This document shows positions 8,919 to 11,535 of a DNA stretch of 64,000 bases, piece after piece. Below the pieces are notes generated by a model, which did no database searches, had not been told where the DNA came from, and saw only the letters and a list, made by a program, of their open reading frames with translations. The translations under genes and the position numbers were made by a program. The stretch is from Akkermansia muciniphila. Its GTDB lineage: Bacteria; Verrucomicrobiota; Verrucomicrobiia; Verrucomicrobiales; Akkermansiaceae. Positions within the stretch are counted from its first letter, which is position 1; each line of letters starts with the position of its first letter. Where the stretch lies: the NCBI GenBank assembly GCA_945890645.1, contig CAMDCV010000001.1, positions 1 to 64,000 of the forward strand. Reading direction: 5' to 3'.

Positions 8919-9914
8919 TTAGGTTGCGGTGGCCCATACGCGGGCACCCATCGCGCGACGTTCCTTGGTGGCAAAAAAGCCTTCTAATCCCGGGCGCGCA
9001 AGTAAGTCCGCGATCATGGCCTCGGCCGTGCGATGACGCCAGCGAAAGCCCTCCTCTTCGAGTCGCAGCGGTCGCACCCAACGACTCTTGAGCACTAGTT
9101 CCGCTTCCGTGCGCAGTGCCCAGGCCCCGAGTTTTACCATCCATTGAGTGGCAGGTAGTCCGATGGGCATGGCTAGGGCTTCGCGTAAGAGTTGCTGCAA
9201 CCGGCGGTTGGTCGGTGCCTCGGGCGCGGTGAGGTTGAAAACGCCATCGAGCAGGGGATTGCCAACGAGGAAATCCAAAGCTGCCAACCAGTCTTCCATG
9301 TGCATCCAGGTGACCCGTTGGTTGCCGCTAGCTAGTGCTCCGCCGAGTCCACAACGAGTGATGCGACAGAAGACATCGAAGGCCGACTTGTTTTCATTTG
9401 CCATCACGATGCCAGTGCGCAACGCGATCTTGCGCGTGGCAGCGGGAGTTTTTTCGCGGAAGAATGTTTCCTCCCATGCTCGGGCGATGCCAACAGAAAA
9501 TCCTTCGCCCATCTCGCCGCGCCATTCATCTTGCGCTTGGTCTTCGGCATGACGGTAGATCGTGGCAGTGCTGGAATTCATCCACAGGGCGGGTGGTTTT
9601 TTGCACTGGCGAATCGCCCGGGCAATGGCACGAGTGCTATCAACGCGTGAATCTAAAATCTGCTTGCGGTTAGTTTCATCATAGCGGCAATCGACCGAAC
9701 GACCGCTAAGATTCACCACCACAGCAGCTCCTTCCAGCGCGAGTTCCCACGGGCCGCTGCTTTGACCATCCCAGGGGAGAAACATACCATCACCGCTCCA
9801 TCCTTCGCGGTGGCGGGCGATGGCTACAATTTCATATCCCTTGCGCGTCCAGTGACGGCAGAGATATCGTCCTAAAAATCCATTGGCTCCAAATATAACG
9901 GCGATCGGTTTCAT
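8919..9914 (-). CDS. TIGR01777-family NAD(P)-dependent epimerase/reductase
   Basis: 331 residues, an extended short-chain dehydrogenase of the TIGR01777 (YfcH/SulA-like) type. The Rossmann nucleotide loop is FGANGFLGRYLC near residue 8. AVVVNLSGRSVDCRY, RALAIGRTGIV-like ALRTGIVMANENKSAFDVF, and RVTWMHMEDWLAALDFLVGN are family blocks; the C-terminal 50 residues (GAWALRTEAELVLKSRWVRPLRLEEEGFRWRH, read in parts) match the DUF1731 tail. The substrate is unknown for nearly all members. Its ATG overlaps the stop of the upstream DCC-protein gene (ATGA, 9911-9914), so the two are translationally coupled and probably part of the GbsR-controlled unit. The longer frame that starts at 10013 lies inside the upstream gene and was not used. 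Confidence 0.88.
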   Translation of the reverse strand: MKPIAVIFGANGFLGRYLCRHWTRKGYEIVAIARHREGWSGDGMFLPWDGQSSGPWELALEGAAVVVNLSGRSVDCRYDETNRKQILDSRVDSTRAIARAIRQCKKPPALWMNSSTATIYRHAEDQAQDEWRGEMGEGFSVGIARAWEETFFREKTPAATRKIALRTGIVMANENKSAFDVFCRITRCGLGGALASGNQRVTWMHMEDWLAALDFLVGNPLLDGVFNLTAPEAPTNRRLQQLLREALAMPIGLPATQWMVKLGAWALRTEAELVLKSRWVRPLRLEEEGFRWRHRTAEAMIADLLARPGLEGFFATKERRAMGARVWATAT

Positions 9915-10420
9915 GGTGTAAATGTGTGAGTGGTTGCGGTGTTTTTTGCTTTGGCAAGGTAAGGAAGGGAAGGCGGTGTGTGAGAGGGCAATTGGCAAGT
10001 TCCAGTCTGACAAGTGTCATCATTGATTTGTGAAACGGCGTGCCAGAGTTGCCCCTCGCTTTTCAGGCCCATCAGTTGGGAAATTTTATGGCGTCGTGTG
10101 GAGAGCGCGTGAACGACTCTTTTCACCATCGGCTGCCACTGTGGTGCGGCCAGGCGGAACGACCATGCGCGATACTCGTAGGTCGTCCACAAGCAGACGA
10201 TCCAAGCTGGGCTGCCCTGCCACCAGCGACCATCATCGGCGAGAACTACGATGTCCTGATCGGCATGGAGTTGGCGGATACCCGGCATGCGCTGCTCGGC
10301 TTGTTCGGTGGCATAACCGACGAATTCCACACGCACGGATTTTTTCTGCCGCTCCAGCCAGAACCGGAAAGTCGTGCACAAACCGCAGTGCGGATCGTAA
10401 AAAATCGTCAGTGTGTTCAT
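9911..10420 (-). CDS. DCC-family thiol-disulfide oxidoreductase-like protein (DUF393)
   Basis: 169 residues. The N terminus carries the DxxCxxC signature that names the DCC family: FYDPHCGLCTTF, Asp9, Cys12 and Cys15, in a thioredoxin-like context. Next come VEFVGYATEQAEQRMPGI and DIVVLADDGRWWQGSPAW, also typical of DUF393. The C-terminal 40 residues are extra and contain a second cysteine pair (DTCQTGTC). The protein is small, soluble and without a signal peptide. It overlaps the epimerase start by 4 nt and lies 19 bp behind a small membrane protein. The biochemical role of the family is not established; redox chemistry is inferred from the CxxC only. Confidence 0.85.
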   Translation of the reverse strand: MNTLTIFYDPHCGLCTTFRFWLERQKKSVRVEFVGYATEQAEQRMPGIRQLHADQDIVVLADDGRWWQGSPAWIVCLWTTYEYRAWSFRLAAPQWQPMVKRVVHALSTRRHKISQLMGLKSEGQLWHAVSQINDDTCQTGTCQLPSHTPPSLPYLAKAKNTATTHTFTP

Positions 10421-10439: not shown

Positions 10440-10844
10440 TTAGCGAGTGATCGTTCCAGTGGCTTCGACGGGCGGACCCATTTTTTCCCATGTCGCGCGT
10501 TTTCTGGTGCGAGTGAGAATGAAGAGGTTGAAGAAGTGCATTACGCCAAGGATGAGCATCACCACGCCGAGCTTACCACTGCAGGCTTCGAAGATGCCCT
10601 TGGTGTTGGCGACATCGAGATCGAGTTTCATGTAAAGAGCTACGAAGCCGATGTTGACGAGGTAAAATCCCACGACCAGCAAGTGGTTCACGCTGTCGGC
10701 GAGTTGTTCGTTGCCGTGAAAACAATCCACAAGAAAGATACGACCGCTTTTGTGCAGCGTGCGTGCGACCCAGATCGTGAGGGGGATGGCGATGCCGAGA
10801 TAGATGCCGTAGGCGATGACTGTTTGATGGGCGGTGTCGTTCAT
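10440..10844 (-). CDS. Small integral membrane protein, function unknown
   Basis: 134 residues with three or four likely membrane helices: about 12-26 (YGIYLGIAIPLTIWVA), 55-72 (LLVVGFYLVNIGFVALYM) and 88-108 (LGVVMLILGVMHFFNLFIL). The C terminus is short and basic (TRTRKRATWEK). I do not recognise a named family. It is the first gene after the GbsR-type regulator, with a regulator-like palindrome in between, and is followed 19 bp later by the DCC protein. The context suggests that it is a target of the regulator and acts with the DCC protein and epimerase at the membrane, but nothing in the sequence tells what it transports or senses. Confidence 0.75.
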   Translation of the reverse strand: MNDTAHQTVIAYGIYLGIAIPLTIWVARTLHKSGRIFLVDCFHGNEQLADSVNHLLVVGFYLVNIGFVALYMKLDLDVANTKGIFEACSGKLGVVMLILGVMHFFNLFILTRTRKRATWEKMGPPVEATGTITR

Positions 10845-10893: not shown

Positions 10894-10913
10894 TTTTCAG
10901 AAAATAATGAAAA
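10894..10913. promoter_or_regulatory. Palindrome, copy 1: probable GbsR-type operator
   Basis: A perfect inverted repeat TTTTCA-N8-TGAAAA in the 94-bp gap between the regulator gene and the small membrane protein gene. The 8-bp centre is GAAAATAA on the plus strand. When the second copy is reverse-complemented, 18 of 20 positions agree. Presence on both sides of the regulator gene is the usual picture for an autoregulated operator. Confidence 0.6.
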
Positions 10914-10938
10914 TATGTGCGAAAAAAAATGAAGGGGT

Positions 10939-11490
10939 TTAGCCGAGAAGTTTGGCGGCGAGTTGGATGGCAAAACCGTGTTTCATGCTGGAGACTTGAT
11001 CGGCGACTTTCGAAGCGAAGCTGACGAACTCCTCGAGTTGACGCATTTGTTTGTGAAAGGCTTTGGCTTCGGGGCTATCCCACTCGCGACTTTTCTCCAT
11101 GCAATCGCGCAACACTCCGAGAGCTGGCTCGATTTCCCGGCGCTTGCGTTCGCGGGCAACAGTACGGGCGATTTCCCACACATCCTTCTCTGCTTCAAAG
11201 TATTCCTTTCGTTCCCCACGAATCACCACCGTGCGGACAAGGCCCCAGGCGATGAGTTCCTTGACGTTGGTGTGGGCATTGCCACGGCTGATTTCCAACT
11301 CCTCCATGAGGTCATCGGTGGTGAGTGGCTTATCGACCGTCATCAGTAGCGCGTGGATTTGAGCCATGGTGCGATTGATGCCCCACTGCGATCCAAGAGC
11401 ACCCCACTGCGAAACAAATTCTTCGCGAGCGGCCTTTAAGGCGGCTTTCTCGGCGTTGAATTGTTCGGCTTTGCTGCTCACGATTTTCAT
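10939..11490 (-). CDS. GbsR/MarR-family transcriptional regulator
   Basis: 183 residues of the GbsR type, a winged-helix DNA-binding family related to MarR. The N-terminal part is charged (AEQFNAEKAALKAAREEFVSQWG) and leads into WGINRTMAQIHALLM, PLTTDDLMEELEISRGNAHTNVKELIAWGLVRTV (helix-turn-helix and recognition helix, about residues 55-90) and the wing RGERKEYFEAEKDVWEIARTV. The C terminus is helical and probably dimerises. In Bacillus the GbsR protein responds to choline; here no choline or betaine genes occur, so the ligand is unknown. The start codon at 11490 lies inside a palindrome that is repeated downstream of the gene, suggesting autoregulation. recJ ends 45 bp upstream on the same strand. 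Confidence 0.88.
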   Translation of the reverse strand: MKIVSSKAEQFNAEKAALKAAREEFVSQWGALGSQWGINRTMAQIHALLMTVDKPLTTDDLMEELEISRGNAHTNVKELIAWGLVRTVVIRGERKEYFEAEKDVWEIARTVARERKRREIEPALGVLRDCMEKSREWDSPEAKAFHKQMRQLEEFVSFASKVADQVSSMKHGFAIQLAAKLLG

Positions 11491-11503
11491 TTTATTCTGA
11501 AAA
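11484..11503. promoter_or_regulatory. Palindrome, copy 2: probable GbsR-type operator overlapping the regulator start codon
   Basis: TTTTCA-N8-TGAAAA again, here with centre TTTTATTC on the plus strand. The ATG of the regulator (complement of 11488-11490) falls inside it, so a bound dimer would block both promoter and start. It is the reverse-complement partner of the copy at 10894-10913 with two mismatches in the centre. Confidence 0.6.
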
Positions 11504-11535
11504 CTTCATAAAGCAACAATTATTTTGAGGTTTTT

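Follow-up and report, generated by a model that had tools for sequence, protein, structure and literature searches.

In the part of PMC6207618 considered here, the four studied members of the GbsR family that are named are repressors, and the contexts given for the family are osmostress and cytochrome bd, together with an unassigned remainder; the main text of that article has no words starting with fatty, thiol or epimerase. In the corresponding part of PMC7396694, the operator of GbsR is described as an inverted repeat, AT-rich and with 4 bp between its halves, that lies downstream of the start site and works as a roadblock, and OpcR is described as blocking the -35 region.

The locus compared with these systems lies in a 64,000-nucleotide stretch of DNA (the window, meaning the whole stretch analysed) and contains a gene for a GbsR-type regulator with a palindrome on either side. 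This regulator is likely to be an autorepressor of a membrane-lipid and thiol-oxidoreductase regulon, which it would control through these operators both at adjacent genes and in trans. No description of such a regulon was found among the titles and abstract openings of the open-access articles searched.

Two probable operators at the regulator gene

The two palindromes reported in the initial annotation were confirmed. TTTTCA-N8-TGAAAA is present at 10894-10913 and at 11484-11503 with identical half-sites, and the two sites agree at 14 of 20 positions in the same orientation, a figure that rises to 18 of 20 once one of them is inverted. From base composition, 0.003 exact motifs are expected per 64 kb; in 300 dinucleotide shuffles of the window the mean was 0.017 and the largest number 1, and the pair was obtained in 0 of 300. 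The palindrome pair is real and above chance. With 2 mismatches, 3 places were found in the window against 4.1 expected, so that conclusions have to be drawn from the exact motif or its extended form. Both palindromes are very probably operators of the GbsR-type regulator: the predicted operator of the regulator gene (UP site, 11484..11503, minus strand, TTTTCAGAATAAAATGAAAA on the coding strand) and that of the adjacent memb-dcc-epi operon (DN site, 10894..10913, minus strand, TTTTCATTATTTTCTGAAAA on the coding strand), each an exact palindrome.

Conservation was followed in 81 loci, comprising the window and the best 80 of 382 loci in relatives, which are related to one another. The UP site has at most 2 of 12 half-site mismatches in 78 of the 81 loci (best counts of 0, 1, 2 and 3 mismatches in 40, 21, 17 and 3 loci), compared with 21,857 control windows from the same loci, in which 0 mismatches were never reached, 1 in 0.03%, 2 in 0.3% and 3 in 3.1%. 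The DN site just past the regulator, also with at most 2 mismatches, is present in 55 of 81 loci, with a search window of 130 bp for DN and 100 bp for the controls. Both sites are thus conserved in relatives that keep the gene order; their loss there would have counted against the initial annotation. A second set of 40 loci in relatives, which overlaps the first (L109 and G004, for example, share contigs) and is not independent of it, gave at most 2 mismatches at the UP site in 34 of 40 loci, down to a regulator identity of 47% (G038). Poor UP sites in this set were those of G023 (4 mismatches), G010 (3) and G026 (7, at a contig edge), and in distant relatives those of G053 (5), G036b (4) and G054 (4); G011, with a regulator 37% identical, has 2 mismatches yet a different palindrome, TTTTCTGAAATTTCAGAAAA. 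G005 and G008, both from the genus of the window, have a degraded UP site (2 mismatches) and lack a DN site, and there is no memb-dcc-epi run behind their regulator. In the site profile, built from the 78 of 81 loci remaining after three with 3 mismatches were dropped, the inner positions of the half-sites carry nearly the maximal information and the flanks carry little, apart from T residues at 13 bp and 7 bp upstream of the site, and the consensus is close to TTTTCAGTAWWTACTGAAAA, a palindrome longer than 6+6.

A TTG begins 11-17 bp upstream of the palindrome in 74 of 77 loci (one further locus with short upstream sequence being dropped), versus 10.9% of control positions, and in the window it belongs to a putative -35 element, TTGCTT (11511..11516, minus strand). 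The AT-rich centre of the site contains a -10-like hexamer, TATAAT in L109 and L111 and TAAAAT in the window, where its position in site-aligned promoters makes it the candidate -10 element (11489..11494, minus strand). The palindrome would then overlie the -10 of the regulator promoter; a scan for consensus promoters made no call here. In 73 of 78 loci, the earliest start codon in frame comes 1-4 nt downstream of the palindrome. Of the five exceptions, two (L117 and L168) stem from a tied site away from the start that the script picked. In L114 the ATG within the palindrome is out of frame. The spacing and the L114 case favour GTG at 11479-11481 as the most likely regulator start, rather than ATG 11490 inside the site, from which the longest ORF (183 aa) begins. 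The second palindrome had been described as covering the start codon, which is correct for the ATG of the 183-residue ORF, but the likely GTG start merely abuts the site. The probable true coding sequence, which would give a protein of 180 residues, is 10939..11481 (minus strand), based on the Pfam and MJ223/1ku9 matches and the start-codon spacing. Since transcription starting about 7 nt past the putative -10 would coincide with the start codon, the regulator message is probably leaderless.

The first palindrome does precede the run of membrane protein, DCC protein and epimerase genes, as the DN site lies upstream of memb-dcc-epi. The first operon gene, memb (10440..10844, minus strand), encodes a small membrane protein with no significant family (nothing below E 0.099 in Pfam and no family in NCBIfam); its alignment of 16 sequences has a mean column identity of 72%, and its structure model (pLDDT 62) was left out of the fold search. 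The gene dcc (9911..10420, minus strand), encoding a DCC1-like thiol-disulfide oxidoreductase (Pfam PF04134, E 2.3e-13), overlaps by 4 bases with epi (8919..9914, minus strand), encoding a TIGR01777-family SDR epimerase (TIGR01777 at 207.6 bits with a cut-off of 207.35; PF01370 (Epimerase) and PF08338 (DUF1731)). Where at least 43 bp separate regulator and target, 53 of 59 loci have the DN site, and where no more than 28 bp do, 0 of 17 have it, an effect that is partly trivial, as a 20-bp site cannot fit a very short gap, but the search spanned 130 bp downstream. The other five of the 81 loci are L144 (site, no recognised target), one locus that has a site but whose gap to mboat comes out negative by extrapolation, and three (L116, L117, L178) with neither DN site nor recognised target. 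At the level of sequence, there is approximately one operator per transcription unit.

Probable operators before relocated target genes

The genome of the window (3.82 Mb, 66 contigs) contains six exact motif places, against 0.16 expected from base composition and about 1 from the shuffle mean scaled up, so the motif is not at random frequency genome-wide, a check set beforehand. Two of the places are those in the window, one precedes an operon on contig C34, and three lack regulon-type neighbours: that on C3 lies within a T2SSE-family gene, and those on C17 and C37 have different centres. These three are probably chance occurrences or other elements. Ten of the weaker candidates listed for a fourth site in this genome were inspected, and none lies before a regulon-type gene. 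The site on C34 (C34:12233-12252) ends 17 nt upstream of the ATG of dcc2, encoding a second DCC protein, followed by mA and mB (small membrane proteins) and mboat (an MBOAT_2 wax-synthase-like acyltransferase). With this third operator before dcc2-mA-mB-mboat and more unlinked targets in relatives, the regulon is not self-contained, contrary to the initial annotation; autoregulation with control of a small operon is consistent with the non-random motif and with sites conserved along with the gene order, but the regulon would extend beyond that operon.

In relatives, dcc2 is found within the cluster of the regulator in G017, G029, G019, G034, G016, G028, G032 and G020, several of them also with mA, mB and mboat, and dcc2 directly behind the regulator occurs in other genera. 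Where dcc2 or memb-dcc is unlinked to the regulator, the site is kept in 8 of 11 loci, in a survey that leaves out three weak DCC matches without a locus: before dcc2 in G000, G001, G003, G005, G008, G030 and G042, and before memb-dcc in G031. The three loci without a site are those of G049 (regulator match 42% identical), G025 (no regulator match) and G036 (DCC protein 30% identical). Across related Verrucomicrobia the same sites recur before genes of the same types, including genes that have been relocated.

A strict palindrome, TTTCAGWAWWTWCTGAAA, was searched more widely. It occurs at 25 sites in 17 of 57 relatives, the reversed pattern giving 0 in every genome, and in 80 of 244 family genomes, the reversed control giving 0 in all; it is stricter than the three sites of the window genome, which therefore scores 0, and it was also absent from 7 of 9 searched congeners. 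Thirteen of the 25 sites are at the regulator and 12 elsewhere. The latter are beside a DCC gene (G012), a fatty-acid desaturase gene (G015), memb-dcc (G031), a DUF2071 gene in a divergent intergene (G030), dcc2 operons (G030, G008, G005), mA-mB-mboat (G014), genes for a protein without known family and then a PEMT-DCC protein (G017), an SDR-photolyase run (G030) and a TetR-ABC1 run (G030), with one (G019:C7) lacking a recognised target. Forty further loci, chosen by the authors among the family-scan matches listed, comprise 16 regulator-linked and 24 unlinked ones; 16 of the unlinked sites precede dcc2/mA/mB/mboat, memb-dcc, epi or PEMT-DCC genes, and 8 are off the lipid theme or without recognised target (polyprenyl synthetase, 2; TetR-ABC1 or SDR-photolyase, 2; no assignment, 4). 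The target families are DCC1-like, MBOAT_2, FA_desaturase, DUF2071, Polyketide_cyc2 and PEMT, with matches below the Pfam cut-off for FA_desaturase in L042, Polyketide_cyc2 in L056 and L071, the DCC part in L213 and L265, and PEMT in L240. Since most of the recurring targets are lipid- and membrane-type proteins, the function is not wholly obscure, and the original wording, a small operon of unknown function, can be narrowed to a partly inferable role.

Several other occurrences were recorded. In L253 and L255, from two genomes, the strict palindrome stands beside a polyprenyl synthetase gene, and in two g10 genomes (L210:4629-8385 and L256:4196-6524), the only ones in which photolyase was seen behind the site, the operator is followed by an SDR gene and then a DPRP-type photolyase gene. 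Photolyase is not supported as a general target, as 0 of 30 loci from other relatives had a site adjoining the gene (32 matches in 38 genomes; 1.5 kb covered on each side); three stray places with 1-2 mismatches (L279, L296, L299) are either within the gene or a long way upstream of it. Rejected too was a match to DUF2071 in L225, with 26% identity, which lies about 2 kb from the candidate site with another gene in between. In G042 (contig C16, a genome of another family, f6; L082 and L220), dcc2-mA-mB-mboat has a 2-mismatch operator and a dcc2 that is 77% identical, with a weak regulator match, and this operon is possibly a transfer or a misbinned contig. In addition, an 18-mer, ATTCTGAAAATTCTGAAA, is present on either strand at 8 places on 8 contigs of G000 (C6, C17, C21, C23, C28, C29, C34, C53), forming some sort of dispersed repeat, and does not occur in the window even if 2 mismatches are allowed. 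L008:1364-1512 (G000 C37) holds several TTTCAC...GTGAAA-type palindromes in about 150 bp, which look like the operator cluster of a different regulator.

The regulator, its predicted action and the alternatives

The 183-residue ORF encodes a MarR-type winged-helix protein (Pfam MarR_2, E 1.9e-8, above the cut-off), and its best of four matches by sequence is MJ223 (1ku9; E 6.1e-18). The AlphaFold2 model of the monomer (pLDDT 89.8) also gave MJ223/1ku9 as the best match in the fold search (E 9.6e-10); other MarR structures match as well, and FabT (6jbx) matches weakly (E 6.5e-3). The MarR-fold winged helix and MJ223 (1ku9) as the closest solved relative are both features of the GbsR family, for which MJ223 commonly serves as template. 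It is fold and sequence, rather than features of a subgroup, that support membership of that family. Another GbsR-like gene, more distant and with 20% identity to the window regulator, is present at G000:C13:25483-25926, and a second weak match is also present in many of the relatives searched.

The regulator, presumably as a dimer, would repress its own gene by covering the -10 of the promoter, and it would also repress the adjacent memb-dcc-epi operon and, in trans, the C34 operon dcc2-mA-mB-mboat. Elsewhere in the family, this operator is found ahead of genes for fatty-acid desaturase, DUF2071, PEMT-DCC and epimerase proteins. A small molecule or redox signal may release the repressor, by which membrane-lipid and envelope-thiol modification would be switched on. 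This role, held to be likely, is suggested by the family names of the targets, namely acyltransferase, desaturase, PEMT-DCC, lipid-transport-type Polyketide_cyc2, small membrane proteins and DCC. The proposal builds on what can be read from the sequences, namely that the sites exist and are conserved, that the regulator start codon follows them at a constant position, that each transcription unit has about one operator and that some targets are unlinked. What we infer is that this regulator binds the sites, that they overlap the -10, that the effect is to repress and not to activate, that the message is leaderless, and what the signal and the role in lipids would be.

The sites could be operators of another transcription factor, with the GbsR-type gene merely one of its targets. 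The site is present without a detected orthologous regulator in G042 (best match E 1.6e-8, 93% complete) and G012 (no match, 69% complete), and a TetR-type gene also bears a site in two genus g10 genomes (L212, L248). However, 78 of 81 loci have the site fixed at the promoter of the GbsR-type regulator itself, as is usual under autoregulation, and G025, with no regulator match, has a dcc2 homologue without a site; genus g3 (one member compared, G011, regulator 37% identical) also lacks the strict site, although the strict pattern misses the window genome too. This explanation is considered quite unlikely. It is extremely improbable that the palindromes act as terminators or other RNA hairpins, or that they are AT-rich repeats arisen by chance: one site does lie 25 bp past the regulator stop codon, and the C34 site has a more stable fold than shuffled sequences (-4.6 kcal/mol, z -4.7), as any palindrome would, but folding is weak for the two sites in the window (-1.6 and -2.5 kcal/mol), neither was called as a terminator, and the same sequence occurs at promoters too and not just behind genes. 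Chance repeats are excluded by the conservation across loci.

Two further explanations keep a GbsR-type regulator acting at the sites and change what it would serve. Osmostress regulation as for GbsR, OpuAR and OpcR is very unlikely, as the kinship in sequence seen with the CudC choline regulator model (NCBIfam NF047500, E 1.9e-14) reaches 53.8 bits and falls short of the equivalog cut-off of 218 bits. No osmoprotectant synthesis or Opu gene was found in the window (regulator and six neighbours) or among the neighbours named in relatives, the checks in relatives covering those neighbours given a family name; no choline, betaine or Opu gene is among the families named beside the sites, and no cydAB genes, which would be expected beside a regulator of the CydE subgroup, are among the genes named in the window and relatives. 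A response to redox or photo-oxidative stress, rather than lipid remodelling as such, with Cys130 as the sensor, would fit the presence of Cys130 in 105 of 108 regulator sequences, the frequency of DCC thiol-disulfide oxidoreductases among the targets and the operator before the SDR-photolyase (DPRP) run in two g10 genomes (L210, L256). A cysteine switch via Cys130 is possible, but in L124 and G013 (L071) a Tyr replaces Cys130 and the operator is still kept, and the 0 of 30 photolyase loci with an adjoining site (1.5 kb on each side) argue against the wider claim, which is regarded as doubtful.

Membrane-lipid and envelope-thiol modification under a GbsR-type autorepressor is the preferred reading. 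A bolder version of it, held only as a speculation with rather low probability, would be a new GbsR-type branch in Verrucomicrobiota with a modular lipid/envelope-redox regulon, in which the operator is the -10 of a leaderless autoregulated promoter, Cys130 senses the membrane or oxidative state, and targets are reshuffled keeping the operator.

Comparison with known regulators

With a defined operator and regulator, the gene runs with DCC, DUF1731, MBOAT_2 and DUF2071 become one testable regulon, and since the operator marks the targets, it can be used for finding more genes of the same pathway. The GbsR family would gain a setting outside osmostress and cytochrome bd.

FabT is a MarR-superfamily repressor of lipid genes. 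The system predicted here resembles it in the MarR fold, the palindromic operators and the lipid-type targets, and differs in that the regulator fold is far closer to MJ223 than to FabT and in that the target genes are different.

The regulator is alike to the GbsR family, as represented by GbsR, OpcR, OpuAR and CydE in parts of PMC6207618 and PMC7396694, in a MarR-type winged helix closest to MJ223 (1ku9), in AT-rich inverted repeats, here as predicted operators, and in a regulator gene adjoining its probable targets, and the studied members repress. The targets are unlike, being DCC, membrane, acyltransferase and epimerase genes here and osmoprotectant or cytochrome bd genes in the members covered there. 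The half-sites of the GbsR operator as described are 4 bp apart, whereas here 8 bp separate 6-bp half-sites over the putative -10. An operator in that place differs from both the GbsR roadblock and the OpcR block of the -35, and the window operator would work like that of a classical autorepressor.
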